Shown: piece by piece, positions 9,981-32,134 of the stretch
Position numbering within the stretch: position 1 is the stretch's first letter
How the letters are laid out: each line of letters starts with the position of its first letter
Assembly (NCBI RefSeq): GCF_900660525.1
Contig: NZ_LR214970.1
Location: forward strand, 620,001 to 684,000
Direction: 5' to 3'
Length of the DNA: 64,000 nt
DNA from: Mycoplasmopsis bovigenitalium
GTDB taxonomy: Bacteria > Bacillota_I > Bacilli_A > Mycoplasmatales > Metamycoplasmataceae
Position numbers and translations under genes: made by a program
The notes under the pieces: model-generated
What the model saw: only the letters and a program-made list of their open reading frames with translations
The model's database searches: none
Told to the model about the DNA's origin: nothing

Positions 9981-11231
9981 ATGAATGATAATTTAAGAAA
10001 ATATCTAGCTAATTTTCCAAATGATGAGGGATATTTTGGTGAATATGGTGGGATATATTTACCTGAAGAATTAGTTGGTGTATTCAAGAAACTTGCACAA
10101 CAATACAGAGAAGTGTGCAATAGCCAATCTTATTTAGATGAGTTATCAAAAATTAGAAAAGAATTTCAGGGTAGACCAACTCCAGTTTATTATTGCGAAA
10201 ACTTATCTAAAAAATTTGGTAAAGCACGTATTCATGTTAAGCGCGAAGACTTAAATGAAGGTGGGGCTCACAAAACTAATCACTGTTTGGCTGAAGCTTT
10301 ATTTGCTAAAATCATTGGTAAAACAAAACTTATTGCAGAAACTGGTGCTGGTAGCCATGGTTCTGCTGTTGCGATGGCAGCGGCGCATTTTGGTTTAGAA
10401 TGTGAAATACACATGGGTGCAGTTGATATTGAAAAACAAAAGCCAAACGTTGAAAAAATGAAGATTTTAGGAGCAAAAGTTATTCCAGCAACTCACGGTG
10501 CTCAAACACTTAAAGAAGCTGTGGACTCAGCATTCGAATCATATGCAAAACAACACGAGACTGCACTTTATGCAATAGGTAGCGTTGTTGGCCCTCACCC
10601 ATTCCCACTAATGGTTAGAAATTTCCAAAAAATAATTGGCGAAGAAACAAAAGCTCAATTTTTTGAAAAATACAATAAAAATCCTGAATATGTTGTGGCT
10701 TGTGTTGGCGGTGGTTCAAATGCTATTGGCTCATTTACTGCATTTTTATATTCAGACACAAAACTGGTTGGAGTTGAGCCTTTAGGAAAAGGATCAAAAA
10801 AAGGAGAGCACGCTGCAACCTTAACCTTTGGAAAACCTGGTATTTTGCATGGTTTTAAATCAATTTTATTAGCTGATGAAAAAGGAAATCCTAATGAAGT
10901 TCATTCAATTGCTTCTGGATTAGATTACCAAGGTGTAGGTCCTGAACATTCATACCTTAAAGAAAATAATCTTGCAGAATATGTTGCTGTCACAGATAAA
11001 GAAGCATTGCAAGCATTTTTAATGATCGCGAGAACTGAAGGTATCATTCCAGCTCTTGAATCATCGCACGCCATTGCGCAAGGTATTAAATTAGCAAAAG
11101 AAAATTCTGATAAAGAAATTGATATTGTTGTTACATTATCGGGACGAGGCGATAAAGATCTTGCATACATTCTAGAAAATTGCCAAGACGAAATTGTTGA
11201 ATTCAATAAGTTATATGCTGATATGGTATAA
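9981..11231 (+). CDS. trpB: Tryptophan synthase beta chain, without an alpha subunit nearby
   Basis: TrpB joins indole and serine to make tryptophan using PLP. The 416 residues align over the full length with TrpB. The PLP lysine is K98 in [15 protein letters not shown], the catalytic Glu is E120 in AETGAG, the phosphate loop is GGGSNAIG (243-250), and LSGRGDKD sits near 386-393. D315 in [12 protein letters not shown] matches the conserved Asp. The Gln usually found after AETGAG (as in GAGQHG) is Ser125 here. AAGGAG precedes the ATG. No trpA or other trp gene is in the window, so the enzyme would need free indole or act on serine. Confidence in family is high, in physiological role low. Confidence 0.93.
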
Positions 11232-11612: not shown

Positions 11613-12968
11613 CTAATTTCTAGTTTCAGTAAATTTACTTTTGTATTTTTTAGCATTTTCAACGAATTCAATAACTTCTTCGTCTGTTGCTAAAACAAAA
11701 TGTTTATCAGCAACTTGATGTCATTTTGGCTGGTTATTTTCATCATAGTCATGAACTGTTGTAGAATAAACTTTGCCTACAAGCGAACCTTTTTCGGCCT
11801 CTATAGAAGGAACGGCATCAAGTAAAGATTGAGTGTATGGGTGATGTGGGTTGTGAATCACTGATTTTGTTGGCCCAACTTCAAGTAAAGTTCCTTTATT
11901 TATAACAGCAATTCTGTCCGAAATATATTCAACCATTCTCAAGTTATGAGCAATAAAAATAATTGTAAGGTTGTATTTTTCTTTTAATTCCTTAAAAATA
12001 TTAATAACCTGTGCTTGAATTGAAACGTCAAGCGCACTAATTGGTTCGTCAGCTATTAAAATTTGTGGTTGTAATACAACTGCTCTACAAATTCCAAGAC
12101 GTTGTTGTTGCCCACCTGAAAATTCAAGAGGGTAACGATTTAGAACAGTTTCATCCAACCCAACTTGGTGAAGAATATCTATAATTAATTTACGTTTACA
12201 TTGTTTTTCATTTAGATGTTGTTCTTGGTCTCTAAATTTACGTCTTTCAATTATAAATGAATTGATTTCGTCAAATTTTTCTTTACGAATTTTGTCTTTT
12301 AGTTTTAATAAATTATTACCTTCAACCTCGTAAACAAAATTGTAAAGAGTTTGCTCGGTATCTCAATTTTCTCTTAAAGAATCTCAAGGATTTTTGCTTA
12401 AAACTAAATTAGGATTTATCATTTCAAGTTTCTTGTTTAACTCTAAATAGGTTTCAATATCAATATTTGTTAAATAAATATATTTAGAATTTTTAATATT
12501 GGTTAAACCTTCTCCAACAACTGTTTCAACATTTTTAAAAGGGTTTAAACTATTTGTAGGGTCTTGGAAAATCATCTGAACTTTATTTACCATGAAATTA
12601 ATAATTTCACGACCTTTTTTAGTTCATTTATTAATCTTTTCTCTATTTTTAGGAATGATAGTGTCAATAATTTTGATTTGACCAAAACTATGAGGTGTTA
12701 GACCAATTATTGCCTTACCAGCAGTGGTTTTACCTGAACCAGACTCGCCAACAAGCCCTAAAACTTCCCCTTGATAAATATTTAAGTTTAAATCCTTTAA
12801 TGCGTAAAATGTTTTTGCACCATAACCATATGTTACATCCATATTTCTAATTTGAACAATAGGTTCTTTATCTTCGCAATTTAACATTTCATCTGTTCCA
12901 GGACGAATTTTACGATAGATTTTTTTACCAAAACGAGCGTGTTCAACATAATATTTATTGTTCATCAT
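11613..12968 (-). CDS. oppF: Oligopeptide ABC transporter ATP-binding protein OppF
   Basis: This is one of two ATPases that power peptide import. It is 451 residues in code 4. It has Walker A GESGSGKTT, signature FSGGQQQRLGICRA and Walker B ILIADEPISALD. About 150 residues rich in Lys and Glu separate the Q-loop region (MIFQDPTNSLNPF) from the signature, making the protein longer than typical OppF (about 320). The usual OppF/DppF C-terminal HNPHHPYTQSLL is present. It overlaps the end of oppD by 14 bp. Confidence 0.93.
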
Positions 12969-14481
12969 GTGTCTCCTCGTCTAGTTTAATTTGTTGCTCT
13001 TTTTTAATTTGATTTACTTGCTTATTATATGAATTAATTTTTACTAAATCATTCATATATGATTGATTTTCAACAAAAATGTCTTCGCCGTAAATAGCAT
13101 TAAGTCTATTAAAATATCTTTTTCATAGATTTTGAATAATTTTAGGTGGTTCATAATATGGAGCATTTTCATCTAACAGACTTGATTTGACAATGTGTGT
13201 TGATGAAACCATATAGAAATCTGATTCTTCCTCTAAATCTTTATTCAAAGCATAATCGTTTCTTACTGCGAAAGCATCGCCACTGATATTATTTAGAGAA
13301 GAAGGCACTGAGCCACGAATAACATTAAGTCGTTCATCATTATTGTAGTCTGGCATTGAAGAAATAAGACCTCATGTATAAGGGTGTTGAGGGTGCATTA
13401 AGATTTCTTCTCTGGTACCTGATTCAATAATTTGACCAGCATACATAATGTTTATAAATTCAGAAATTGAGGCAACAACACCTAAATCGTGAGTGATAAA
13501 GGCGATTGCAATGTTAAATTTTTGTTGTAATTCACGAATAATATCAAGAACTAGCGCTTGAACTGTAGGGTCAAGCGCAGTGGTTGGCTCATCCATTACT
13601 AAAATTTTAGGTTTTAAACTAACAATTGCAGCAATAGCAATACGTTGAATCATACCACCTGAAAGCTCGTGTGGGTATAATTTCATTACATTTTCTGGAT
13701 TGTTTATTTTTGCTAATTTTAGGTATTTTATAGCTTCTTTTTTAGTTTTAACAATGCCATTAATTAGCATTCCTTCAATTATTTGATTACCAACTTTCAT
13801 TGTTGGGTCAAGAATTGACATTGGGTTTTGGAAAACTGCTGAAACAATTCGACCTCTAAGGCGCGATTTTTCTCAGTTGTATAAATTGTAATTATGAACT
13901 TCTAAACCATATAGTTTTACAGACCCAGATTCAATTATTGAGTTATTTCCAGTCAAACCATAAAGTAGCGATGTTAAAACTGATTTACCAGAACCTGATT
14001 CGCCAATAATTGCAGTAATTTTACCTTCATAAATTTTTAAACTCGGTCCACGTAAAACTAAGTTTTTTTCTTTAGGGTCAGCAGGGTTTTTGAATGTTAA
14101 ATAAATATCTTCAATTTCGGCAGCAACTTTTAAGTCTTCTCCTAAAACATGGTCAATTTGTGCAGAATCAATGTATTTTTGAATATCAATATTTGATTCT
14201 TGTTTTCTTTTTCAATTGAAAATACGTTTAATTGAGTAAAAAACGTTTTTTCAATAATCTTTAATATTTCTTCAAATTGATTTATTTTGTTCTTTGCGAA
14301 CTTCCAATAAATTTAGTGGGTGGGGTTTAGCAAGTTTTTTAATTACCTGTGGATAAAGTTTTGTGTAAGGGGCTGCATTTAAATTTTCACCAGTTTTTAG
14401 CGTTGTTTGCATTATGGTTGAGTAATGTTCTATTTTTTCTTTATATGACAATTTAGTTCAATTATTTATATTTTTATTCAT
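12955..14481 (-). CDS. oppD: Oligopeptide ABC transporter ATP-binding protein OppD
   Basis: The partner ATPase of OppF is 508 residues in code 4. A poorly conserved N-terminal part of about 130 residues precedes the ABC domain. That domain has Walker A GESGSGKSV, signature LSGGMIQRIAIA and Walker B ILVMDEPTTALDP. The HPQHPYTWGL peptide-transporter motif follows, then a long hydrophilic tail. Both ends exceed typical OppD, as is common in mycoplasmas. It lies between oppC and oppF in the same operon. Confidence 0.93.
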
Positions 14482-14488
14482 TTTATAC

Positions 14489-15547
14489 CTATCTTTGTCT
14501 CAACAATGAATCTTGAATTGTTGCAGCAACTAATTGAATTGATGTGGTTAATAGAACTAAAACTGTCGAAGGCAATAGAACATAACGAGGATATGCAGTG
14601 AAAACTTTTGAACCTTCTGAAATTAAATTACCTAGTGTTGGAATATCAATACTTAAACCAATGAATGCTAGTGAAGTTTCTGAAAGAATAACGCCAGGAA
14701 TATGGAAAACTATTTCTGTAACAAGCAAAGGAATAACAACAGGTAAATAATTTAAAAGAATTTTGTATGTTGGAGTACCCAAAATACTTGAAGCAGCAAC
14801 TCATTCGAATGATTTTGCTCTTAAAACTTGTGAACGCATTTGGTTTGCGATTCCAGTTCAAGAGGTAAAAGTAAGAGCAAATACCATAACTCAGAATGTT
14901 GGTCTTCAAACAATAGTAATAACAATAAGAATAATAATTGAAGGCACATTCGAAATTATTTTGATTATAAAGGTCATTATTTTGTCAAATAATCTAAAAT
15001 GACCCATCATAATTCCGATCAATAAGCCAACAAAAACTTGAATAATCGCTGTTACCATTGCTAAAGACAATGAATATCTAAGCCCTCATCATAATCTAGC
15101 AAATAAATCACGCCCTAGAAAATCAGTACCAAATATTGCCGATGGTGTTTCAAAGAAGTTTTGATATCTATTGTTAATATCCAATTTTTCAGGATTCTTT
15201 GTAAAAAATGGAATTATTATTGCGCTAAATACAATTGCAAGTAGTAAAACTAGTCCAAACACACCTGCAAAACTTCTTGAAAATCTGTAGAATAATTCAA
15301 CTCATTTATTTTGCTGCTTTTTAATATTATTTGATTCATAGTAATCTAATAAATTACCAATTAATTCTCATTTTTTGTAGTTTAATGGTTGTAAAAACCT
15401 GTTGGGAGCTAGGTCTTTACCAAATTCATTATTGGGTGATACACGCTTTGTTTTTGGTTTACTAAATGATTTTTTTTCATTCGATTTTTTTACTTTTTCA
15501 ATTGAAGAATCAATTGAATTGGTTTTTAAAAATTTTCAATCAAACAT
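14489..15547 (-). CDS. oppC: Oligopeptide ABC transporter permease OppC
   Basis: This is one of the two membrane subunits of the peptide importer, 352 residues in code 4. About 90 mostly hydrophilic residues precede the first helix. The dipeptide-permease motif FGTDFLGRDLFARLWWG is near 150, followed by five to six helices. The EAA-type loop (EWVAASSILGTPTYKILLNY) contacts the ATPases, and the C-terminus ends IQDSLLRQR. The order oppB-oppC-oppD is standard. Confidence 0.93.
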
Positions 15548-15556
15548 AGCATCCCC

Positions 15557-16627
15557 CTATCTTCTTCTAACCCTTGGGTCTATTGCTTTATAAAGTGCAT
15601 CACGACATGTATATGAAAGAATTGTAATTAATGAGAATAAGGTAACCATAAATAAAATAATGTTGTAGTCTTTAGAGGTAATAGCATTTAATAATAATCC
15701 ACCACTACCTGTTATAAAGAATATTTGTTCAACGAACATACTACCAATAAAACTACCAAAAATAACTACTGGGAAGAATGTTGCAATTGGGAATAATGAA
15801 GGTTTAAGTGCATGTGTTCAAACAAAACGTGATTTTGAAAGACCTTTTAAATAACAGAATTTAGCATGTTGTGAGTTTAACTCTCTGTTTAATTCGGTTC
15901 TAATGTATTTTATATAAACAATAATTGAACCTAGCGAGAGTGCAAACCCTGGTAAAACATACGTTGCAATGTCTGTTTCTACATATAAATATGGTATGTT
16001 AAGAGTTCTACCAATAAGTAATAGTCATAAAGCAAACACTAATGAAGGAATTGATGAGAATATTGAAACAATAACAGTAGCAATATGATCAGGTAATTTA
16101 TCTGGATTCATACCAACATAAACACCAACTGGTATTCCTATTAAAAGTGTTAGCATTACTGAGAAAATACCAATTAAAAATGATTTATAAAATCTAATTC
16201 AGACAAAATCGTTAATGTTTTGTCCCGGGAAAACTGAATAAGAAATCCCAAAGTCTCCGCGTAGTAGATTTTTTAAATATAATCCAAATCTTTGTACAAG
16301 CGGTAGGTCAAGGCCATATTGGGCTTCTACCGCTTGTTTTGAACTTTCATCAAGTCCAGTAGTTAAAGATGTTGAACCAGGAATAGAATTTATTAAAAAG
16401 AAGGTAATAGTTATAACTATAAATGCGATACTTAGAAATTCCGCTGCCATAATTAGGAATCTTATTAATGATTTTGCAAAAGGTGATCTAACATTGAAAA
16501 AAGATGCAATTTTTGATAATTTTGGCTTTATTTTGCCATTAAAATCAACAAATGAATCATTTTGAATGCTTTTTTTGTCGATTAGTAGCTCATGTTCAGC
16601 TACGAATTCACTTACTTTTTTATTCAT
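15557..16627 (-). CDS. oppB: Oligopeptide ABC transporter permease OppB
   Basis: This is the second membrane subunit, 356 residues in code 4. It has a cytosolic N-terminus of about 55 residues. The first helix is followed by FFLINSIPGS, the usual OppB segment. Later comes LRGDFGISYSVFPGQ, matching the LxxDLG(x)S motif of OppB/DppB. The C-terminus (CRDALYKAIDPRVRRR) contains the typical DPR ending. An AGAGG site precedes the start; oppA ends 10 bp upstream. Confidence 0.93.
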
Positions 16628-16636
16628 TTTTTTCCT

Positions 16637-19534
16637 CTATTTAATAATTGTTGGCAGGGTTGGAATTGGTGGGTTTAAAACATCATAAGCATATTGCAAT
16701 GAATATGAATATAAACTAGATGCTCCATTAACCCTTGAAATTTCTCAATAAGTATCAACTTCCATTAACGGAATAACTGGTGCAGCTTCCCTAACTATTT
16801 TTTCAAAACCAGAAATTACTGCAAAAGCAATAACTTCGGTTCATCCTTCTTGTTTTTCTTCTTCTGTGAATTGACTCGTTAAGAATCTCATATGACGTTT
16901 TGTATATTCATTGGTGTCTTCGTTGTTGTGCAATACTGACAAGTCAACAATTTTGTTTCAAACGTCAGGACTATTAGGTTTTGTTCCAAGTATTCTTAAA
17001 CGTTGTTTTAATTCATTGATTTTCTTTTCATCTTCAGGGTTTTTGATTACTAATTTATTATTTTCATCACGTGAGTAACCTAAAGAAGTAAAGAATTTAT
17101 GGTATGTTCATGATCCTGAAGGGTTGTTTCTGAAACCAGTTGTTTTTTGTTGTTCGCTAACAATACCATCAGGTTTTAGAAATACTCTAATATATGAATA
17201 AATATCACTACCAAAGGCATCAAAGTTACGATAAATTAAGTCGTATTTTCCTGTGGTTCTTCAATCTTCATATACGTTTTCTGGTAAGTTTTTAATGTCA
17301 ATTTCAATAAAGTTTCCAAATGCTTTTCGCATAAAGTCTTTTAGGGCAATACCCGCATTTTTTTGTTCCTCAGATGAGTTTGAAATCATTTTTAGCGTTA
17401 CTTTTGTAAGGTTTGGGTGTTGTTTTTTAAACTCTTCCATAAATCCACGAGCAACATCTAAGTGGAATCCTTTATCGGTTCTGTCTACTGTCTCAAATTT
17501 CATTGATTTAGCAATATGATCAATGTGTTTATAGTTTTGAATTGGTACTGGGATACCTCAATTATTTTCTTCAGCAGTTTTACGCGCTTCTTTGTAAATA
17601 TATTCATTTAGGTAATTTTTCTTGTCATTTGTGTCAGTTGGATATGAACCATATTTTGTGTACATAAAATCGTGTTCAAAACCAGCTTCAACAGCATCAC
17701 CAAAACTCGATGAAGCTTGACCAAATGCCGTTCAAGTAATAACAGGGAACGAACTTGACCAACCAACGATATTTAACATTTCATTTCTATCAATTGCGTA
17801 ATAGATTGCATTTCGTAAGTTTTGGTCATTTACAATTGAATTTGAGTTAGTTTCATTGTCTAAGTTAAACGCAAAGGCAATTGTTCCATAACCATTAGAC
17901 TTATTCATATATTTTCTATTTTGTATATTTGTTCAATATTTCCATTGTAAAGCGGGCGGAATTTTAGTAGCAGAAATATAACCGTCCTCAAACATAGCTG
18001 AATTAATGTTAGGTTCATTCGAGAAGTAGATTTTAATTTTGTTACTAAATGTTTTAGCAGCTGAATAGTATAGGTTATTTTTTGAAAGTAAAATAAAACC
18101 TTGTGGACCTAGAACTAAATCTTGAATATTGAATGGACCATTGGTTAAAAAGTGTTCTCTTTTTAGTCCGAATTCTTTAATTCCACCGATCGACTCGACA
18201 AAACGTCTATTAATTGGTGTAATTATTGAGTTTAAGTCTGTATAAGCATTATTGATATCAGTCGGTTGATAGTCGTCATATGCAACACGCAGAGTGTATT
18301 CATCCATTGCTAATACAACACTGCTAAAGTAATCTTTTGGTTGCAGATTTTTAACAAAATCATTATCAATTGTTGTTTGGTTATTTGGAAGTAAATTATT
18401 GTAAAGTTTGTTTACTTCTTCAGTGTAATTTTCTGGTGAAAATTCATCATAACGCACTGAACCCAGTTTGTATTTTAACTCTCTAGATCTTTGAATTAAT
18501 TTTTTGAATTCTTCAGAAACGGTTTGTTTTGGATCAAAATATAAATATTTTCTAATCTTTACAGGAATACGTTGTGGAACATCGCTATTTTTTCCCGATC
18601 CAATTGATTTTAAGTATTCTGGGTTAGGAAGCATAATAACAGTTGACTCAGCTTCAAAATCAAAATCTGGCGAATAAGGTATTGAAGACAAGATTGTTTT
18701 ATTGTCATAATTTCAATACATTCTCCCTGAATAAAAACCTAAATCAAGTGCAGTTTTTTTAATTTCAGCAACTTCTGCTTCGTCACCTTCGTTTTGTGAA
18801 CCTCAAGGTGTATATAATGGGTCAAAAACATCATAAACTCATTGCCCATCTTTATTTTTGATAATTGGCGGATAGGCAAAAGGATTTTTGTATGCTTTTT
18901 TGTGTTTACGAATGTATTTATTTTGCGCTTCAATCATCTCACTTGAAGATTTAAATTTTCTTTGTAACATAGTTGTTACTTTTTGAGAACCAGTTTCAAG
19001 GTCGAAAATATAGTGCATTGCATCAACATAATCGTCAGCAGTTACTGTGTCGCCATTGCTTCATTTACTTTGACCATCATTTAGAAATACATTACTTGAA
19101 AGGAATTTATTACTTGGTGTAACTATTGAATGGACTGCGTGGCGAATTGATTGGTCTGTTGAAATATTGCCGGGTGCTGAACCAAAATCGTCAAGACTAT
19201 AAAATCTTGGAGAATTTTCAGGATTTGGGTTTTTTTCTAAAAATTTATCAAGATTTCCTTCTTCATCGGTTTGATACAAGCCCATGTGAATTTTAGGCAC
19301 ATTAGCAATTCTTTTGATTGTTTCATTCGGCCCTGATTTTAATGGTGATTCAACTAGTGAAGGCAATAATTTGTTAACAGAAGGATATTTAATGTAATTT
19401 AGCGAGTTAATTGGGTCAGAAGAAAGACCTAAGTCATAATCTTTTTTGGCTTTATTTGAACAAGATGCAGCAATAAGGGGAGTGGCTAAAATTGATGTAA
19501 ATAATGATAATTTAAGATATTTTTTAAAGCTCAT
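16637..19534 (-). CDS. oppA: Oligopeptide-binding lipoprotein OppA
   Basis: This is the surface substrate-binding protein of the Opp system, 965 residues in code 4. A lipoprotein signal peptide ends in LIAASC, with C25 as the lipid-modified residue. The mature protein carries SBP family 5-like segments, such as STDQSIRHAVHSI, and a Ser/Asp-rich linker. Mycoplasma OppA proteins are much longer than other bacterial ones (about 550), and this fits that pattern. An AGGAGG site lies at the very end of the preceding giant gene, so the two are translationally linked. I saw no convincing Walker A motif like that described for M. hominis OppA. Confidence 0.85.
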
Positions 19535-19542
19535 AATTCCTC

Positions 19543-22500
19543 CTATTGTTTTGACCCGTTAAATTGAACACCAACTCTCATAACTGGTACTTTTTCGCCG
19601 TTAATTTCCTTAATGTATACTGCTGTTGGTGCTTGTGAGAATGTTTTTCCATTTTCTGAAACACTTTCAAATGAACCTAGATCTACATTAAGTGTTTTTG
19701 TTCCTTTTTCATCTGCTGCAAAGTAAATTTTGTATTCGTGATTTGGGGTCAATAATTTGTCTGCATAGTTTGACATAATTGCATAATCAGAAACTCAAGC
19801 AGTAAATCCTGTTCCCTTGTGTTCACCATTTGAATCACTGTAACTGTATTTTTCATCTTTTAAGTAGTGTCGTGATTCTGGTTTTTCTTCATTGTGAATA
19901 TGTTGTGTTTTGTAATAGAACATATTCGATGTGTAATTTTTGTTAATTTTTAGCGTTTTAATTTCTTTAGTTTCAAGATCTTCGAACACTAAATAGTTAA
20001 CTTTTTGAGCATCTTCATTATTTAAGTAACCAAATAAAGCAACCGCATCTTTTTGAGCATTTCTTCAAATATTAGATAAATTACGTTTACCGACACCTTG
20101 TGATTGAATGTAATATTGTCAGTATGCTTGAGGTCGATTTGTTACTTTATTTCCTTCTAAATCTTGAATACGAATTGTGTCGTCTTCAATTGGATTTCCG
20201 TTGTCATCGTAAAGTCTAAAGTTTAGCATATCTCTATATCAACGGTCTTTAAATCAACCATTATTGATTGACTTGAATTTGCCAAAGTAGTTTGAATTTT
20301 TGTTTTGATCATCTGAGAAAGCATCACGAGTAATAAATGATTCAGGCTTAAATTCAGTTCCTAATTTTTGTGCCCGCAATTTTGTTTCATTATTCAATCT
20401 ATTTTGTGAATTCATTACACTTTGACGTACTGAAAATCTTGAATCACCGCCAAAATTAATTTGCGCTGAGCTTCATTTTTCAGTTGCTTTGCCATCAATA
20501 ACATATTCAAGACCCGTGTTTGCTTCATTTACATTTGTTATAAATGATGGTAAGTTAGCAAATTCAGTATTGGCTGGTGAATAAGTTATTTGCAAGTTAT
20601 CACGGTTGATAACTTCGGCAAATGAGTAAGTATAATCTGAGAAGAATTCATTGAATTTACGCTCAGTTTTTGTTTTAAAGTATTGTTCAACATCGCTTGT
20701 TGGACGAGTTTTTTTAGTGAATGCCTTAACAAAAGCAAGTAATAAGTCAACCAAGCCTCATTTGTCTTGTTGGAAACTGTAATGAACTTGAGTTGAATAC
20801 ATTTGAGTTTTATTGTCAAGAATTAAATGGTCGTATAAAGTAAATTGATTTAGTTTTACACTATTTTCTTGTGCAAATTTGTCATAAGTATCAAAAAGTT
20901 CTTTAACACTTATTTCTCAATTTTTGCGATCTAATTTTGATTCATCTGCTTGGGCAACAACATCATCTGATTTGTATAGCCCATAACCTAATTCTTTATC
21001 AAATATTCAACCGTATCTATACACATTTGAAGGGTTTTGGGCAATTTTATCTTTAATTTCACCTAGTGATAAATCTTTTACAAAGAATGCAAGTTTAGAT
21101 TTAGTGAATCTTAGCATAATTTCGTTTGCTAATTGTTGTTTGTCTTTTGATTTAACAAGTGCACTTAATCTTTCTTTTTCTTTTGCACTAAAAATTGAAT
21201 TTAGAAGAGTACTTTCAAGATTTCTTGCAAATCTGTCAATATCAAATTTTGATTCAACATAATCTAGATCTCAATTAACTACACGCTTAACTGGGTCAAG
21301 TTGCGCTTTTGTTGTATCAACACTTGCAAACTTAACAAACTCATCATATGTTTTAAAAATTATTTCTGAGCCAAACAATCTTTTTTGATCTCTTGTTATA
21401 TAAAAACTATTAAATAGGGAATCTTCAACAGTTTTTACAAGCAAATTATTATTGATTTTTATACCAGTCATTTCTCAAAAAGCAGGATAATCTGCTGAAC
21501 GAGGGTTTGGACTAATTACATCACCATTTGCATTAACCATCAAGTATGTGTGTGAGTCAAGTTTGTGACCAACAATTTGTTTGGTATATGGATTGTATCA
21601 ATTTTGAATTGGCAACTGGTGCAATTGTTTTAAAGTGCTTTCTGAGAATGAATGGTATAAGAATGAATTTCTAAATGCTTCTTTGTGCATTATGTTAGGC
21701 AAGTATTGTTCAGTTGCTGACAATCATAATGATTGTTTTGCACCGGCCGTTGCAGCTGGATAGTTACCACCTTCTGCAAGGTATAATTGAGTTATAAAAT
21801 CTCTAAAGTCTGTTTTGTCTTTGCCTTTGTTTTTAAATGGATTTAAGTAGTAGTTTTCTTGTTTAATTGTTTGATATTTAGGGTCTTTTAGTTTTTCATC
21901 ATCGCTTGTCGCATCATAAACAACTTTTCCTGCATTATCATAGTATTTTGCAAATTCAGTTCCTTGATTTAACTCTGCTGTTACAACATTTCTTGATTTG
22001 ATATAGTCAAGATATGGTTTAAGCATTGTTTGATTGTAATTTTTGTCTGCATTATTAAATAATTCTGCATATGTAGGATACGAAACATATGTCTTTGAGT
22101 TAGTTGAAGTATCTGTTGTAGCAAAATCTCAGCCATTTATACTGTAGTCCTTAACAATTAAAGCACTAATTGTGTTAGCAGCTTGTCTAATTCGTTCATT
22201 TATGAACTCAACATTAACATTATTACCTTCTGAATCAATTTGGTAAAAACCACTGTTTTTATCAGTAAAATCAACATTTAAAGGAACATTAATAATTGGT
22301 GAGCCATCTTTGTTGTAAACAAGAACTTTGGTAATTTTTGTGTATTTACCCGATTCATCTTTAACGCCTTCAACAATTTTAGGTGTAATATTTTCACTAT
22401 TTTCTTCAAACTGAATAAAGTTGCCTTGTCCATCTTTAATAACATTTTTAAGCATTATTAATGAAGCTTTTTTAAATGATCAATTACCTTGTTCATCTTT

Positions 22501-25500
22501 AACCATGTATTTTACAGGGTGTTTTTCATCTGAATACTTAGTTGGGTTTAGAGTACCCGAGTTTTGGTCAAGAGTGTTCATTAGCCACAAGTCAAAAATT
22601 TCAAGTCATTTTTTGTCTTGTTCTGAATCAATGCCATTTTCTTTTCGTCTTGCTTCGGTTGCTTTTTGTAGACCTTCATATGTTTGTAAGAATCTACGTT
22701 TTGCATTTTCCATTGCTGCTTTTAAGTCTTCTTCACCAACTTTGTGACCTCAAACATCAGTAGAATTTTCAACGGTATTTTCGTTTATAACTACTTTTCC
22801 ATCAACTTTTTTAGGTTGATTGAATAATAAATATTCGCCCTCGTTGTTTTCTGAAACAACATTAGGTTGGTTTAATAACGGAGAAGAGTTTAATTCTAAG
22901 TGTGTTCTGGCTTTTAAATATAATCCAATAACTTCTCTTGAATAATAGTTATTAACATTTGGAGTTGTGCCCGGAACAAGTGCAGAACCAAATAGTGGTT
23001 TTTGAGCTTTATCACCTAAATCTTGAGCTGAATTAAGTGTCATATGGTGTCCATATTCATGGGCGGCAACGAATTTTAAAAAGTCGATTGACAAGCCTTT
23101 GTAATTTTGATTATTCATTGCGATTAATGATCATAAACCAATCCGCGAATCAGGTCTAAACCCCAGATATTTTCCGTTTTCAATTGAAAATTCAATTTCC
23201 CCGTTATCATTAATTTTTTTAACAATGTGTTCACCTTCTAATCATTCGCCAGCATAAGGAACAGAAGCAAGTAATTCATCGGTAAATCCATCGTATGCTT
23301 CGGTGAATAAACTGTATGTAGAAATTGTCTTTTGTTCACCTTTTTCATTTGTGACAATTCTTGTTCCTTCTTCTTTGATATTTGATGGCTGAATAACAGT
23401 TGTATAACCTGCAGCTGAAAGCATATCTTTAAATTGACGCAATGTATGTGGGTGTTGTTTTATGTCTAATTTAGCATCAATAGTGAATTTTGCAAGCTTT
23501 CTTGTCAATAGTTTATCAATTTCATTCTGGCTATCATTTGAATTTTGACTTAAAACAAATGATAAGTTTGTACCATGTTTCTCTAAAGAAGTTAAATAAA
23601 CCTCGAAAATATTGTTTTTTGAAAACTCAGCAAGGTTTGTGCTTGTTTCCTTATTGATAATTCCAAGTGAAGTCAGTTTGTCAATAAGTTCAATTTTGCT
23701 TTTTGCTGTAATTAATGATGTGTTTGCTAAATCAATTGGTTTTGCATTGATATTGGCAAATGCCATTGATTTAATTGCTTGATATTTCGCGATATTTTGT
23801 GCATGTTTTATTGCATTTTCAAATGATGAATTAAATTCATTGTCAATTGAAATGAATTTATCTGAACTATTATTTACAATATTTGTTTGCTTAATTACTT
23901 CATTTTTCAATGAATTTAATCCGGTTTCAAAACGTTTAGAATTTTCAAAATAGTGGTCTAGTGCAGCATTATATGTAGCAATATTTGAAGCATGTTTTTT
24001 TTGCAAATCTTCGCTTAAAATACTTGGACGATATTTTAATACAGGAACATCATCTCTATTAAATGCATCTTTAAGCTCTGTAATTTTTCTAATATTGTCT
24101 AAATCTTGATTAAATTCATTGTTAGTTTTAGCAATTTCAGCATAATATTTAGAATTATTTATTGCAAAATCGTATTCTTTTTGCAATAAATCTTTTGTAG
24201 ATTGATCACTCGCAGAATCAATTTGTGCTTTAATTTGCTCTGCTTTTTGTTTATATGAATTAGAGTAATCTTCATTAAATTTATTGATTTTTTCAATGTA
24301 AATTAACAATGGATTGAATAATGTACCAATAAATTTAAGGTCTTGGTTATCAGTTTTACCATTAGTATCAACTTCTCTATAAATCGGGTTTTTAATGACA
24401 TTAAAGTAACTTGTTGCGTACTCTGACATAAATTCAATTGGGTATTTTTCAATCAAATCTTTAACAAATTTTATTGAGTCAGCAAACTTAGATGCTAATT
24501 CACTTAATTGATCTTTATTTAAAAGATTTGATTGTTTGAATTCAACAACCCGACGAGATGAAAGTTCAAATATCGCTTGTAAGTCGCTTGTGTATTTTGT
24601 GTCTGTAATATCTGAAGATTGAATATTATTAATTAATTCAGACATTTTTTTATTGAATAATTGGTCTTTTTGTTTTAAATATTCTGCGATCTCAGAGTTT
24701 AGTGAATCATTGTACTCATTTGAAATTGCTTGTGATATTTTCAACATATTTTCAATGATTTTGGCAACTCTATACTTAAATTCATTGAATTCTTTTTGGG
24801 AAATTTCGAATATTTTTTCAATATTATCCATCACTTTTGTAAATGATGCTTCATTAGATTTTAGATGATCATTGTTTTTAATTAGACTAAGAATTTGTTC
24901 TCTATAAATGTATTTTTTATCCTCTGTCTGAGCGCTTGCAAAAGCTTTTAAAGTACCACTTTTGACTAATACATTGGCATTTATTTTGTGTTTTTCAACA
25001 ACCTTATCTAACTCTTTTAATAATACTTGATATTCTAAACGTAATTTCTGAATGTTTGAATTTGATAGTTTATTGCCTATTCTATCGTGCAATGACTTAA
25101 TATTTGCATCATTAACAAATGAGGAATTTAAATTGTTGAATTTTTCTTCAACTTTTTTAGATTCTGCCTCTAATTCTGCTTTTTGAGCTGTGCTTGAGCT
25201 CATTTGATTGATATAAGCAAAAAATTTGTTTGGTTTTACTTTATCGTCAACATTTGAGCGAATAAATCCATCTAGATTTGCATATTCTCTTCAATTGATT
25301 TGAGTTTTAAGCGACAGACTAGCTAATTCATCAAGTGCAATAAGTTGTGTTGGTAAATATGCAACATCAAAGCCATATAAATTAAACTCGCTTTTTTGTA
25401 GATTTAATTTAGCAAATGTTTCTCCAGATAAATGACGGTTATATAAACTGTAGTAAGATCTTTGAATATCAACAAAGTTTCTAACTTCTCTTATATATTT

Positions 25501-27417
25501 GGCTTTTGAGTCTAAAGAATCAAAATCTGTTTTAAAGTTTTTGTATTCGCTTTTGTTGAATAAATTATGTAATAAATGCAACTTAATTACATCATCAATA
25601 AATTCTTTGTTGATGCCCACTGAGTGTAATAAAGAAGTTATTTGGTCTTTGTTTATTGATTTTTCTAGTTTTGATTTTTCATTAACTGCTTGTGCAAGTT
25701 TTGCTCTAGCGTCTTTGATTTGTTCTTCACTAATAAGTTTTGCTTTATTTTCATCAATTAATCTTTGAGCGGTTTTAACAGCATTTTCGTATTCAAAAAG
25801 TTGCAACTCAATATCGTTTTTTTCTTTTTCTAATTTAAATAGTTCAAAAGAAATAGAATCTTTGTTTGTTTCATTTAGTTCGTTTTGTTTTTGTTGAATT
25901 TTTTGTTGTACTTCTGCAAGTTGTGTTTTTAATTCAGTAACTTTTTGTTTTGATTTTTCTTGATCTTCTTCAAGTTTTGTAATTATTTCATTGTGCTGTT
26001 TGTTTGTGTTTGAAATTATTTTATTGAATTCAATTATTTGTTTAGATAGTTCGTCAATCTTTTCAGTAATTTGAGCAAAATTATTGAATTTAGCAAATGA
26101 ATCTTTTGAAAATAGAATATTTTTTGATATTCATTTTTCATAAAGTGATTCTATATCGGTAAATAAATTGTTGAATTCAATTTTTGCTTGTTCAAGGGCA
26201 AAATCAAGACTTTGAACATTGTTGTGTAGTTCGAAGTTGCCTTTAGAGTTTTGGTATTCAACATTATCAATAGCATCAAAAAGAACGAAATTAGTTGCGT
26301 CATTAAATGTAAGATTTAAATATTTTTCTTTTTGACCATTGTGTGTGTTGTTTATAAAACTAGAATCAATTATTGTTTTTTCTTCAAAAATATAATCATC
26401 AATATTAGTTAGTGATTTATATTTGTCTTTGTTTGAGTAAAAAGAGTGATGTTTGGCAAATTTTGTTTTTGCTTCTTCAATATCTTTAGCAAAAATTAAA
26501 GTTTGATAATCTGAATTAATATTTAGTCTGCTTTTTTCAACTTCGCTAAATGCATAGTTAGCAAAATTTTGTTTTGTTTTTGATTTTACGGCAAATATTT
26601 TTTTATTGATTAATGATCGATTATCTAAAAGGGTTCTAAATGAATGATTTAATAGAGTGTCACTTGTGATGTTTGCTTGTGAATTAAATAAAACGGTTTT
26701 AGATAAAAATCCTTTTAACTCGTCAATTGTTAAAAGCTTTTTATTGATTTTATATAGAAGTGAATCAGGTGCATTACCTTGTCCGCTTAATGTTGAGTGC
26801 ATTGGAATTGAACCAAAGAATGCATCAGGGAAGAATTTAATTGTAGTTTGCTCTTTATCGATATTTGAGTGTGAACCAAGAGTAAGGTTGTTTCCTCTTA
26901 ATTCAACCCCTTTTACAATTGAGAATTCTTTAAGTGTAATAATTTCTGGGCCTCAAGAAACATTTTTCATAAATCAATCAGTGAAGACAAAAAAGTCTTT
27001 AGCAGTAACTGCTTCAAGATATTCATTATAAAAATCAAACATTCCGTATCTAATGTTTAAAAATGGTAGTGAATGATGTTCTTGGTAATATTCATTCAAA
27101 AACGAATTGTAATCTAGATTTTTACCTTTGTATGTTACTGAACCCAATACCCCATCATTTGGATTAAATGTAGCGATATTTTTTTCTTTACTTGCATCAA
27201 CAAAAGTTAATACTGGTATAGCATTTGGATCTAAAAATTCGTTTTTTAGATTTTTGGCACTTTCATTTTTTGCTAACTTAGGATTTTTTGAATTATATTT
27301 AAAAATTCCAAGTGTCGCAGCCACTGCTCCTGCAATAATTCCAAATGATATTAAATATTTTGGCCAAACTAATGTTCTTCAATTTAATTTCGTTTTAGGT
27401 TGATTTTTATTTGCCAT
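19543..27417 (-). CDS. Giant membrane-anchored PDxFFG-type protein with HExxH zinc-protease motif
   Basis: A single 2624-residue reading frame in code 4; every gap was checked and has no TAA or TAG. Residues about 20-38 form one membrane helix near the N-terminus, so most of the protein is probably outside the cell. PDAFFG at 197-202 matches the signature that names a mycoplasma protein family in public annotation. Residues about 430-1390 are rich in Lys, Glu, Gln and Asn and look like long coiled coil. HEYGHH at 1453-1458 is a zincin-type active site (H1453, E1454, H1457); the third ligand was not identified. It ends 8 bp before oppA, so it is in the opp operon. Peptide supply to Opp is inferred. 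Confidence 0.85.
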
Positions 27418-27546: not shown

Positions 27547-30500
27547 TTATTCTTCGTAGAATTTTTTGTTTGCAAAATTATCTATCATGTCAGATAGAGC
27601 ATAAGCATCAGCTACAAAACCTAGAAGGGTTGATGAAACAAAACGTTCATCTTGCTCATCCGAATTGTTATATTTATCACCACTAAATCTAACTCAAGTA
27701 TCAGGAAATATTTTTTTCTCCTTAAATGAATTTATATAGTTATAGTATTTTTCTCTTGACTCAACTAAAGATTTTTTAGCAGACAATTTATCTTGAGAAT
27801 CAGAATTTATAAATTTAAGTAGATCTTCTGCGTATTTTGTCTCAAGATCTTTGAATTCATTATACACGATCAATGGCGTGCGAGGGTCTTTATTGAAATA
27901 TTCAGTATCAAAATAGTCTTCATTCCCTTTTATTGAAGTTATTAATTTGTATTTAGAATTATTTGAAAAATCATTAAATAATTTATTTAAGAATGATGAT
28001 AAAACTTTATCCGGGTGAGTATTTTTATCAGGTAAATTTGACGTTGTTTTGGCAAAGTTATTATTTTTTCAGTATCTTAGTAAAACAAAAACCTCTTGAC
28101 CTGGTATGTATTTAGCAGTTTTTATTGCTCTTTTTTTTCTATTTTCAATATTTTGAATATTAGACTCTCAACTGTTTAAATCATCAAATATGATAGTCAG
28201 CAAACCTTTTTGTGGGGCACCATCACTTGCAGATCCAATTTTGTCCAAGACATTATTGATCTCAATCTTCAATGATTCATTATCATGAGGGTTGTTTTTG
28301 ATGATTTCAGATACCTTATCTAATGATTGTTTCAGTTCTTCTTGGAATTTAGAACGCACTCCATCTGGAAGAGATAATCAAAATCATGGTTTACCATATT
28401 CTGTGACGGTATCTATATTTTTAAGTAATTTTTCTATTGTCGCATTATGATTTTCACTCAATTTAGAAAGTATATTATTTAAAGTGTCACGTATTTCTTC
28501 AAATATACTTATAAATCCCTTGTAATCACTATCATCTGCTTGAACAGAATATCCTTCTTTAATCAGGGTTTTATTAAATTTACCAAATATTGATTGTGTT
28601 TCATTATCGGTATTAGAAGCGGTACCAACCATTTCATTTCATAATTTTTTGGCTGATTCATTTATTTTTTTAACTTCAGAACTGTCGATAGTTTCTTTAT
28701 TATTTATGTCATTAACTAATTTGAAGAATTCATGAAATTTAGTCAGCAATTGATTTTTTATTTCATCATTTTCTGCAAAATATTGAATTCAATCACCTTC
28801 CGGACTCAATTCTTTTTCTAATTTTGTCTTAAATACTAAAACCTTAGTAAATAAAGTTTTAACTTTTTCTTTATTTGCATTTTCATCAAGTGGATTGAAA
28901 ATTAAACCATCAGTAATATCACTAATAAACTTTTTAGCTTTGGCATTTGTTTCTTTCTCGTTTTCAATTAGCTTATCAAATTTTTCGCTATTATCTCATT
29001 TCAATAATTCTTTTAATGATGAATCATCTATATTTTCGCCAAGATTAGCATATAAATTAATTAAATTAATTGACAGTTTAAATTGTTTTTTAAGTATTAA
29101 ATACTGAGTATATCTTGCATAAGAATTAGTAAATGTTGATTTAGGCATTTTATTAATATTCTCGATTAATTTATTGTATTTAATATAAAAATCTTTTCAT
29201 AAATAATCATATATGCCGTTTGTTTCATCATTGTTTTTGTTTGAGTAATTTTTGTAAAATTCAGAAGCAAATGACCCAACTTTACTACGATCAATCTCAA
29301 AATCAACAATTTTATCAATTTTATCCTTCTCATTTTTGTAATCAACACTAAATGTTTCAAACAAGGTTAATTTTGCTTCATCGACAAATTTTTTAAGATC
29401 ATTCCATGTTTCGAATTCATTATAGTAATTTATATTTTCAGGGTCTTTTGCAATTGTTCTAATAGTGTCGGTTACAACTTTTGCCCTTTGATATAAATCA
29501 TTGAAACGGATAGAATAAATATATCCAACACCCTCATTTTTAAGCCATTTATTGTATGAAGTATTCATTTCTAACAATTCTTTTTTAACTTCAGCTTTAA
29601 ATTCCTCATCTACGATTTGACTATAAACAGGAAATAGAGAGATTTTAAATGTTGGAAGATTGAATTTAGGAAGCAACGATCTGTATTGAGGAGAAGCAAG
29701 GTTTACTATATCTCAAATTGGTCCTTTAGTTTCATCACTACTTTCTCTTTCAAGTTCAAATCATTTAGCAATTTGGTGCGCAAAAAGTGACGATTCATCT
29801 TTTGCTTTTTGGTATTTCTCCTTAGCATCTTTAACTTGTGCAATTAATTCATCTTTTTTATCATTTTTATATGAATCATAAGACAACTCTTGAATAATTC
29901 TATCTAGATCTTTAATTCTTCAATTGAATAATTCATCCATCAATTGACTTTTTGGAGTTAAAACAGTTACGGGGTTCGAAGGATCATCAATGAATTTAGC
30001 AACTAATTGTGCTCTATTTAAGTTATAGAATATAGCACTTTGTCATGCAAAAAGATGTTTAAAGTCTTCGGGTGTAGTTTTGAACTCTTCAGCTGATAAT
30101 TTAACACTTTCAGATATTTGGTTAAATAAATCTTTGTTTGAATTGAATGCTTCAGGATTCTGATCTTGCATTGTTTTTGGGAAATCTTCTGCTAAAAATT
30201 TAACTAATTCACCATATAGTGTTCTAGCAGATAAATTATTCTTTTTAACTTTTTTACCCTCAGCAGTTTCTACTTGCTTTTGCAATTCTTCTAATTGTCT
30301 TTGTAAATCAGCTATTGTTGAGTCTTTTTGATCTTTATCAGAAATTTCTACACTTAGTTTTGCTTTTAATGTTTCAAGTTGTTTTTGAAGTTCTGATTTT
30401 TCTGTTGCATATTCTGAGTTTAAACGCGAAATTCTTAATTTTAATTCTGCAAGTTCTTTATCAGTTTGATCGTTTTTATTAGTACACGATGCAGCTAGCG

Positions 30501-30555
30501 CAACTGTTGAAGTTGCAAGTATGGGAGCTAGTATTAATAATTTTCTTTTCATCAT
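27547..30555 (-). CDS. Large surface lipoprotein of unknown function
   Basis: This protein is 1002 residues in code 4. A lipoprotein signal peptide is followed by LAASC (C24). Residues about 30-105 are a clear heptad-rich coiled coil (ELAELKLRISRLNSEYATEK and following). The rest is hydrophilic, helical and rich in Lys, Asp and Asn, with no recognised enzyme motif. The gene is followed after 129 bp by the giant HExxH protein and then opp, and is preceded by a terminator-like hairpin. I do not recognise a family; adhesin, scaffold or substrate-capture roles are all possible. Confidence 0.85.
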
Positions 30556-30591
30556 CTCTCCTTAAAATAATATTGTTATTGTTAGTTATGT

Positions 30592-30622
30592 AAAAAAAGT
30601 AGATTTTTTGCAAAACCTACTT
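30592..30622 (-). terminator. Rho-independent terminator upstream of the lipoprotein gene
   Basis: An 11-bp stem, AAGTAGGTTTT paired with AAAATCTACTT (one G-U pair), is followed by five T residues on the minus strand. It can end the hisS transcript or a leader RNA. Confidence 0.85.
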
Positions 30623-30776
30623 TATCATTATTACAAAATTGGTAGGCTTTGTCGCCACCTTTTATATATTTAAAAATAGTGGCACGTTATTATGAAATAA
30701 CCATCATCTTATTAATGATGTTGTAAGATTTCATTGCGCGTTGACAATAATTTTTAAACATAACTATTTAATTATA
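30592..30776 (-). promoter_or_regulatory. Attenuator-like leader or small RNA ahead of the lipoprotein gene
   Basis: A minus-strand -10 box TATAAT (30771-30776) could start an RNA of about 165 nt ending in a strong terminator 37 bp before the lipoprotein ATG. The RNA has a TGAAAT...ATTTCA arm enclosing a CATCAT/ATGATG hairpin. It also has mutually exclusive pairings. GGTGGC (54-59 within 306xx) can pair with GCCAC (30679-30683) or with GCCTACC (30641-30647). CCTAC inside the latter can pair with GTAGG of the terminator arm. This is the layout of a transcriptional switch. I cannot match it to a named class; it could also be a stand-alone small RNA or the hisS transcript end. Confidence 0.45.
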
Positions 30777-30823
30777 TACAAAAATTTTGTTTTGAATAAA
30801 AAATATGCCATGGCTAAGCATAT

Positions 30824-32134
30824 TTATTCAAAGTTTAAATCTATATCTTCAATTGCTTGTAATTCATTCGCATCTAAAAAGTGCATTAAATCAATAAATC
30901 CTTCTTCAGTGTGTGAAAAGTATATTTTTTCGTTATTTTCAAGACATTTAGCAAGTACTAAATCATTTCCATTCACATTATCATTAAAAATAACAAATTT
31001 TGCATTTAGCCGTTTAGCTTTATCGAAGATTTTTTTACTTTTTGTAACATCCTTTAAAAACTCGATTTTTACACCATAAGCTCTAAGTTCATTTGACATC
31101 GCAAATAATGGAATACTTTGTTCATCACTTGTTGAAGCAACCAATATATCAACAACTTCAACATCATCATTCGAAACATCAAGTTCCTCATCAAGCATAA
31201 GTTCTAAAGTTCTATCAACCCCAAAACCTCAGCCACTTGATGCTAATTGAGGTCCGCCTAGTTCACTAATAAGTTTTGAATATCTTCCACCGCCAATCAA
31301 TGTTGATTGAGAACCACTTTTACTTGATGTAGACACAAATTCAAACACTGTGCCATCATAATAATCAAGACCTCTAACAAGTGAGTAATCAACTATATAG
31401 TTTATATAACAATTGTCCAATATATTCAATAATGAATTGAATTCGTCTAATTCTTCTTTGCTTAAAAATTTATTAATCTTAGGTGCTTTTTTAACAAAAT
31501 CTTTTTGTGAATCTACTTTATCATCAAGAATTCGCAAAACATTATTATCTAATCTATTTTGTGAATCAGCACTTAATTGATCTTTAAAGTTTTCTAGGTA
31601 TTTTTTAAGTTCATTTTGGTATTTTTCTCTTGTTGTTTCACTACCAATAAAATTAATTCTTAGTTGATATTTAATGCCTAAAATATCTAAAATGGTTGAA
31701 CCCATTGCTATTAATTCAGCATCACTAAAAGGATTTGAAGTGCCAACTGATTCAACACCCGCTTGATAAAATTGTCTTTGACGACCTTTTTGCGGTTGTT
31801 CATATCTAAACATTTGACCAAAATAAGCAAATTTAGGAGTTTTTAGTGTTGAATATCATTTATTTTCAACCAATGCTCGCACAAAACCGGCAGTTCCTTC
31901 TGGTCTTAGTGCAATTTCGCGGTTTCCTTTATCAACAAATTCATACATTTCTTTTTTAACAATATCGCTACCAGCAACAGAACGTTTATAAAGCTGCGAG
32001 TGTTCAATAATTGGTGTATCTATTAAACTGAAATTATAACTTTTAACTATTTTGCAAAATACATCTCGAATGAATTCGTGAACATTCATTTCAATTGGAT
32101 TTAAGTCTCTTGTGCCTTTAATTTTATTGAACAT
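30824..32134 (-). CDS. hisS: Histidyl-tRNA synthetase
   Basis: This class II enzyme charges tRNA-His. It has 436 residues in code 4, the usual length. The N-terminus KIKGTRDLNP, motif 2 (LRPEGTAGFVRALVE), histidine-A motif RGLDYYDGTVFEF and LIGGGRYSKL are all present. The C-terminal anticodon-binding domain begins near residue 325. AGGAGG precedes the ATG. It diverges from the amino-acid permease. Confidence 0.96.

Follow-up and report, generated by a model that had tools for sequence, protein, structure and literature searches.

Background

Among the described systems closest to the leader analyzed here, the ilvB1 attenuator of M. tuberculosis follows the same stop-codon masking logic and was modelled with a mask of 26 nt centred on the stop codon (PMC13236596). 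In mycobacteria, cysteine-responsive leaderless short open reading frames carry runs of Cys codons and control downstream translation, according to the accounts citing the original study (Canestrari et al. 2020, cited in PMC9031893 and PMC13236596). Leaderless-like mRNAs make up 16-18% in mycoplasmas and are translated (PMC3160421; PMC10568206), and a Mycoplasma lysine riboswitch has been described in front of a peptide-related gene, encoding oligoendopeptidase F (PMC5584792). Sensing systems that replace one another in front of a single gene are likewise known from elsewhere (PMC2965389). A non-exhaustive search of the open-licence literature yielded no report of a ribosome-mediated attenuator in mycoplasmas. 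Gene regulation in mycoplasmas is commonly regarded as sparse; coupled transcription and translation have been described in M. pneumoniae.

Results

Genetic context of the leader

The window, that is the whole 64-kb stretch of DNA that was analyzed, has a G+C content of 29.8% and belongs to an 841,512-bp contig of a mycoplasma-type genome that uses genetic code 4. The features of the leader and of the operon behind it are compiled in Table 1, in which G and L numbers denote genomes and loci, G000 carrying the window leader. An earlier note on this DNA had placed a TATAAT promoter element ahead of a strong terminator ending 37 bp before the ATG of a lipoprotein gene. The element was recovered on the minus strand with its pattern kept in relatives, and the terminator was confirmed at this distance as a hairpin with a folding energy of -11.0 kcal/mol (z -4.8) followed by T7. 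Both had been missed by a simple consensus scan because the stem is A/T-rich and the promoter is devoid of a good -35 region. The sequence GTTATG begins 6 nt past the -10 box in six of seven leaders, G036 showing TATGAT and a distance of 4 nt instead.

The upstream gene hisS, also located on the minus strand, has its stop codon at 30824 and directly afterwards a hairpin and U-run of its own (approximately 30800-30826), which lie upstream of the leader promoter. Since hisS possesses this terminator and the upstream gene differs among relatives, a link of the leader to hisS was rejected, as was the notion, raised in the earlier note as a possible refutation, that the leader terminator serves only to end hisS. 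Downstream, the 2624-aa protein yielded no Pfam match; its HEYGH motif, within the AAHEYGHH region, is kept in all six named relatives examined. A protein search with this product used 900 aa of its sequence. The conserved motif in this giant protein, which lies between the lipoprotein and OppA, suggests a protease at the cell surface that supplies the Opp transporter. At 9981-11231 on the plus strand, the window also holds a translation that by eye resembles tryptophan synthase beta (TrpB), which is unexpected in a mycoplasma.

Table 1. Features of the leader, of the downstream operon and of the leaders found in relatives
Feature	Position	Strand	Basis or remark
-10 box TATAAT	30771..30776	-	transcription start predicted
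Leader RNA core, ~180 nt, predicted start G 30764 to end of ACATAAC	30585..30764	-	folding and homologues
Near-leaderless frame MFKNYCQRAMKSYNIINKMMVIS plus stop codon (code 4); start codon 3 nt from predicted RNA 5' end	30690..30761	-	same leader peptide in G000 and G063
Cys codon 6 (TGT)	30744..30746	-	near Arg codon 8
Arg codon 8 (CGC)	30738..30740	-	only codon besides the start that all leaders keep as Arg (CGT or CGC)
Hairpin CATCAT-TAATAAG-ATGATG within the frame, possible pause hairpin	30702..30720	-	hairpin at same place in relatives, by eye
Segment 1, GCCAC	30679..30683	-	
Segment 2, GGTGGC	30654..30659	-	partner of 1 or 3
Segment 3, GCCTACC	30641..30647	-	partner of 2 or 4
Segment 4, GTAGG	30616..30620	-	with 3 antiterminator, with 5 terminator
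Segment 5, CTAC (30599-30602), and U7 tract (T7 30592-30598) of intrinsic terminator	30592..30602	-	
ACATAAC, exact complement of RNA 5' end GUUAUGU (30758-30764)	30585..30591	-	all leaders except G036
Lipoprotein, 1002 aa, first operon gene	27547..30555	-	without Pfam or NCBIfam match
2624-aa protein with PDAFFG and zinc-metallopeptidase-type motif HEYGH (23047-23061)	19543..27417	-	
OppA (SBP_bac_5), OppB and OppC permeases, then two ABC ATPases	11613..19534	-	Pfam; ATPases read from sequence
Leader peptide MFEKISPRKLMNAKNIVIAMMFIS			G025
Leader peptide MLNKLCTRISNKIQNIKNKMMNF			G015
Leader peptide MLKNLNARIFKGKNIIMIQIMNFY			G030
Leader peptide MLNTLSTRIFKKNNDIMIKIVIFY			G019
Leader peptide MCTRFSKNNMFIANVMIVF			G036
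Lysine riboswitch	L035 1232-1398		G028
Lysine riboswitch	L036 1231-1397		G083
Lysine riboswitch	L039 4401-4567	complement	G007
Third leader	L062, L063, L064, ~300 nt upstream of lipoprotein gene		G127, G137, G138

Competing segments and their conservation

The leader contains five segments that can pair in alternative ways. The pairing of GGTGGC with either GCCAC or GCCTACC, as proposed in the earlier note, holds for the window and is kept in relatives, and the proposed antiterminator pairing of CCTAC with GTAGG is supported by folding and by a conserved cascade of helices. This cascade, consisting of four mutually exclusive helices with a terminator at its end, was present in 7/7 homologous leaders as compared with 0.3-4.7% of dinucleotide shuffles. 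The whole leader folds at -41.4 (z -4.67), and none of 200 shuffles was equally stable. Folding thus yields an intrinsic terminator along with a competing antiterminator.

Homologues of the leader core were found in G063, G025 (M. simbae), G036, G010 (M. zalophidermidis), G015, G030 (M. sp. CSL7475-4) and G019. Counting G000, 8 of the 61 genomes of the genus have the leader directly in front of the orthologous lipoprotein/protease-like/Opp operon, with differing genes upstream of it. Relatives of the lipoprotein occur in 20 of the 61. The leaders amount to six clearly distinct sequences, as G000 and G063 are nearly identical and G010 and G015 likewise. A pattern search of 320 genomes of the order detected the leader core in seven genomes of the genus, every time before the lipoprotein; G036 is not among these seven, since it carries an altered version in which the switch logic is rebuilt with other bases. 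Two distant matches beyond the genus were discarded as being at chance level according to a reversed-pattern control, and many weak matches in G019 with leader-like spacing turned out to lie in a coding repeat of a single transposase-like gene and were likewise attributed to chance.

The pairings were deduced from anchored segments, because MAFFT alignments set the variable loops out of register. In G015 and G010, segments 1, 2 and 3 have changed jointly at their outer base, resulting in ACCAC, GGTGGT and AACCTACC (ACCTACC), so that the 1:2 and the 2:3 pairing are both kept. Moreover, a stem at the Arg codon covaries, with CGTATT/AATACG in G019 and CGCATT/AATGCG in G030 and G015. The covariation is real but thin, with few compensatory changes among the six distinct sequences. 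The strongly kept primary sequence comprises the switching segments, GTTATG and CGY, whereas the loops differ in length and sequence. Conserved stems in relatives, on which the earlier note had made its switch dependent, are present in the form of the four-helix cascade.

A short reading frame at the RNA 5' end

Two features that the earlier note had overlooked are apparent in the leaders: a short 5' reading frame with a fixed placement of its stop codon, and the match of the RNA 5' end GUUAUGU to ACAUAAC behind the U-tract. The frame starting in GTTATG is open in all of them and spans 19-24 codons. The distance from the first base of the stop codon to the end of segment 1 is 13-15 nt in every leader (sd 0.7), unlike the spacing of segments 1 and 2, which ranges from 11 to 30; a ribosome sitting at a stop codon extends approximately 13-15 nt downstream. 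In shuffles, such a stop placement arose by chance in 1.4-2.4% per leader. In neutral star-tree simulations with similar divergence, 0.8-6% of runs ended with the five frames all open, and less than 0.1% had kept start and stop as well. Differences between the leader frames are found mainly at third codon positions, and the single difference between G000 and G063 is synonymous. Amino-acid similarity was not decisive as proof of coding, as peptide conservation is weak (frame 0 scores 333 versus 304 for frame 1), so that nothing but start, stop and Arg is conspicuous; peptide similarity does not separate these two frames, and the case for coding therefore rests on start, frame and stop. With respect to these elements, the leaders appear to share a conserved, translatable frame that ends beside the switching helices.

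A run of control codons as in the trp and his leaders is missing; an invariant Arg codon CGY is found, together with Cys in some leaders. In the window frame, CGC and TGT are the rarest codons (2.7 and 2.8 per 1000, respectively), and the Arg codon lies partly within a stem. A signal related to arginine catabolism, considered on account of the conserved Arg codon, was rejected, as arcA is absent from 8/8 leader genomes and from most of the genus. The C-termini of the peptides are all hydrophobic (MMVIS, IMNFY, IVIFY, MMNF, MMFIS and VMIVF).

Response of the fold to the position of a ribosome

The leaders were folded with ViennaRNA at successive transcript lengths, and the bases covered by a ribosome were forced to be single-stranded. 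With the A-site at codons 4-8 of the window leader, the probability of the 1:2 pairing was approximately 1.0 and segment 3 was paired with segment 4; from codon 10 onward, 2:3 mostly replaced 1:2, and with the ribosome at the stop codon the probability of 1:2 was 0. The fold responded in the same direction in G063, G015, G025, G030 and G019, more weakly in the latter two, while the scan of G036 revealed only the loss of 1:2 at the stop codon. In G000, G015, G030 and G019, placing the ribosome at the stop codon lowered the probability of 3:4; this effect of the mask was slight in G036 and G063. In silico, the favoured structure thus shifts with the position of the ribosome, if weakly in these two leaders. 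At equilibrium, the terminator was favoured in most leaders whatever the mask, and the outcome must therefore be decided kinetically. Kinetic decisions are usual for attenuators.

The ACATAAC element is situated just after the U-tract and is invariant where present, so that covariation is not available for the 5'/3' pairing. Since it is synthesized after the U-tract, a stem between the RNA ends would form too late to affect the decision on termination. As far as its complementarity indicates, it could close the 5' end of a read-through mRNA against 5'-end-dependent decay and hide the start of the leader frame.

Other leaders in the same genomic slot

In agreement with the earlier note, which could not match the leader to a named class, Rfam provided 0 matches at the gathering score in the whole window and only chance-level matches at loose thresholds in three leaders (the window leader and two relatives). 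The window leader neither matched the aptamer model of the lysine riboswitch (RF00168) nor conformed to the T-box model with its stem I and specifier. In G028, G083 and G007, by contrast, a lysine riboswitch (78-80 bits in Rfam) precedes the orthologous operon at the same place. These leaders also contain a leaderless short frame (MKKANQHY...RIKSI) between promoter and riboswitch, with MKKANQHYSNMFMIIRNRFTRIKSI in L035 and a visible -10 box in L039; a double control by riboswitch and leaderless frame is possible.

In another genus (G127, G137, which is M. zalophi, and G138), the gene ahead of the operon is mgtE-like, and the operon is preceded by an unrelated third leader. It starts with a leaderless frame (MKKVLLTNSMIIMNKNGIAYSMCTYR and relatives, ending in MCTYR or MCAYR), displays several competing hairpins and is without an Rfam family match. 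A separate hit in G026, at L044 1249-1348 (complement), was assigned to a TPP riboswitch with 55.8 bits, barely above the threshold.

Discussion

Proposed mechanism and alternatives

The reading that we favour, and regard as reasonably probable, is that the leader senses the supply of amino acids and acts as a ribosome-mediated transcription attenuator, its leader peptide being read from a near-leaderless start. Conservation, alternative pairings, stop placement and the response of the fold to ribosome position were computed; translation of the leader, intracellular termination, the identity of the amino acid that is sensed and any role for the 5'/3' pairing are inferred. A ribosome would load at the 5' end of the RNA as the leader is still being made by RNA polymerase. 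If slowed at codons ~4-8 (Cys6, Arg8), it would permit the 1:2 pairing and with it the 3:4 antiterminator, and the operon would be transcribed. A ribosome reaching the stop codon would cover segment 1, leading to 2:3 and to 4:5 with the U-tract, so that transcription would stop 37 nt before the lipoprotein gene. In this way, the operon for the surface protease and Opp uptake would be switched on by a shortage of amino acids. Once transcription has read through, ACAUAAC may pair with GUUAUGU at the 5' end of the RNA, which would hide the start codon of the leader peptide and protect this end. The leader thus probably acts in the manner of trp-type attenuation. With respect to the earlier note, the antiterminator logic over a peptide-uptake operon is borne out by conservation and folding, whereas control by a riboswitch or a protein fits less well; the ribosome is the more likely sensor because the stop codon of the 5' frame is positioned so as to mask segment 1 and the loops are without aptamer-like conservation.

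It is unlikely that the leader is a riboswitch of a hitherto undescribed class that binds a metabolite, possibly an amino acid or a peptide, with segments 1-5 as expression platform. The stability of the leader fold, the lysine riboswitch at the same place before orthologous operons and the complementary RNA ends, reminiscent of a closing stem, would be in accordance with such a sensor, but Rfam remained silent even at loose thresholds, the kept sequence is confined to the switching segments, GTTATG and CGY with variable loops between them, and the stem of the RNA ends is impossible before the decision on termination. We are even more doubtful about an arrest of the nascent chain at the stop codon, of the TnaC or SpeFL type, by which a free amino acid or peptide would hold the ribosome over segment 1: the masking of segment 1 from the stop-codon position and the hydrophobic C-termini speak for it, but the identity of the C-terminal residues is not conserved, and known arrest motifs were not found by eye. 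Very improbable is control of the attenuator by an RNA-binding protein or, T-box-like, by uncharged tRNA. The regulator slot is exchangeable among relatives, and in our own comparison AAGGTGGC superficially resembles the T-box sequence AGGGUGGNACC; yet a T-box match was not obtained in Rfam at E values up to 10, stem I and specifier loop are missing, GGTGGC is a pairing arm that becomes GGTGGT jointly with its partners in G015, and a repeated protein-binding motif was not seen. That no switch exists, the terminator being constitutive or the end of hisS and the complementarity fortuitous, is hardly credible despite the A/T-rich sequence and the terminator-biased equilibrium of most leaders, given the separate hisS terminator, a cascade in 7/7 leaders versus about 1% of shuffles, the coordinated three-segment change in G015 and a leader that travels with the operon.

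If the ribosome-mediated attenuator is real, translation itself adjusts a peptide-uptake operon in a minimal bacterium, and transcription and translation have to be coupled for this. Moreover, several kinds of leaders have been exchanged in front of one operon between close relatives. As a tentative generalization, for which we would not claim even odds, leaderless upstream frames at mycoplasma mRNA 5' ends might be ribosome-driven transcription attenuators that are exchangeable with riboswitches before one peptide-uptake operon, and whose 5' end is sealed by a sequence beyond the terminator, silencing the leader peptide in read-through mRNA.

Comparison with known systems

With T-box leaders, the window leader has in common an antitermination leader upstream of amino-acid-related genes, but it is without stem I, specifier, T-box sequence and Rfam match. 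The lysine-riboswitch leaders (RF00168) of G028, G083 and G007 share the operon, the position and a short frame directly after the -10 box, whereas the window leader is devoid of the lysine aptamer. As far as the cysteine-responsive frames of mycobacteria are described in the citing papers, both systems use a leaderless short attenuator frame, with a Cys codon in several of the leaders studied here; these differ in having at most a single Cys, together with an invariant Arg and a transcription terminator. The closest resemblance in logic is that to the trp and his attenuators of E. coli and to ilvB1 of M. tuberculosis (PMC13236596), with which the leader shares a short leader frame, alternative hairpins and an intrinsic terminator, as well as the predicted behaviour that the terminator is favoured once a ribosome sits at the stop codon and the antiterminator when it stalls earlier. 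Unlike these systems, it comprises five switching segments rather than four, has its start codon at the RNA 5' end with neither a Shine-Dalgarno sequence nor a run of control codons, and is directed at peptide uptake instead of biosynthesis.
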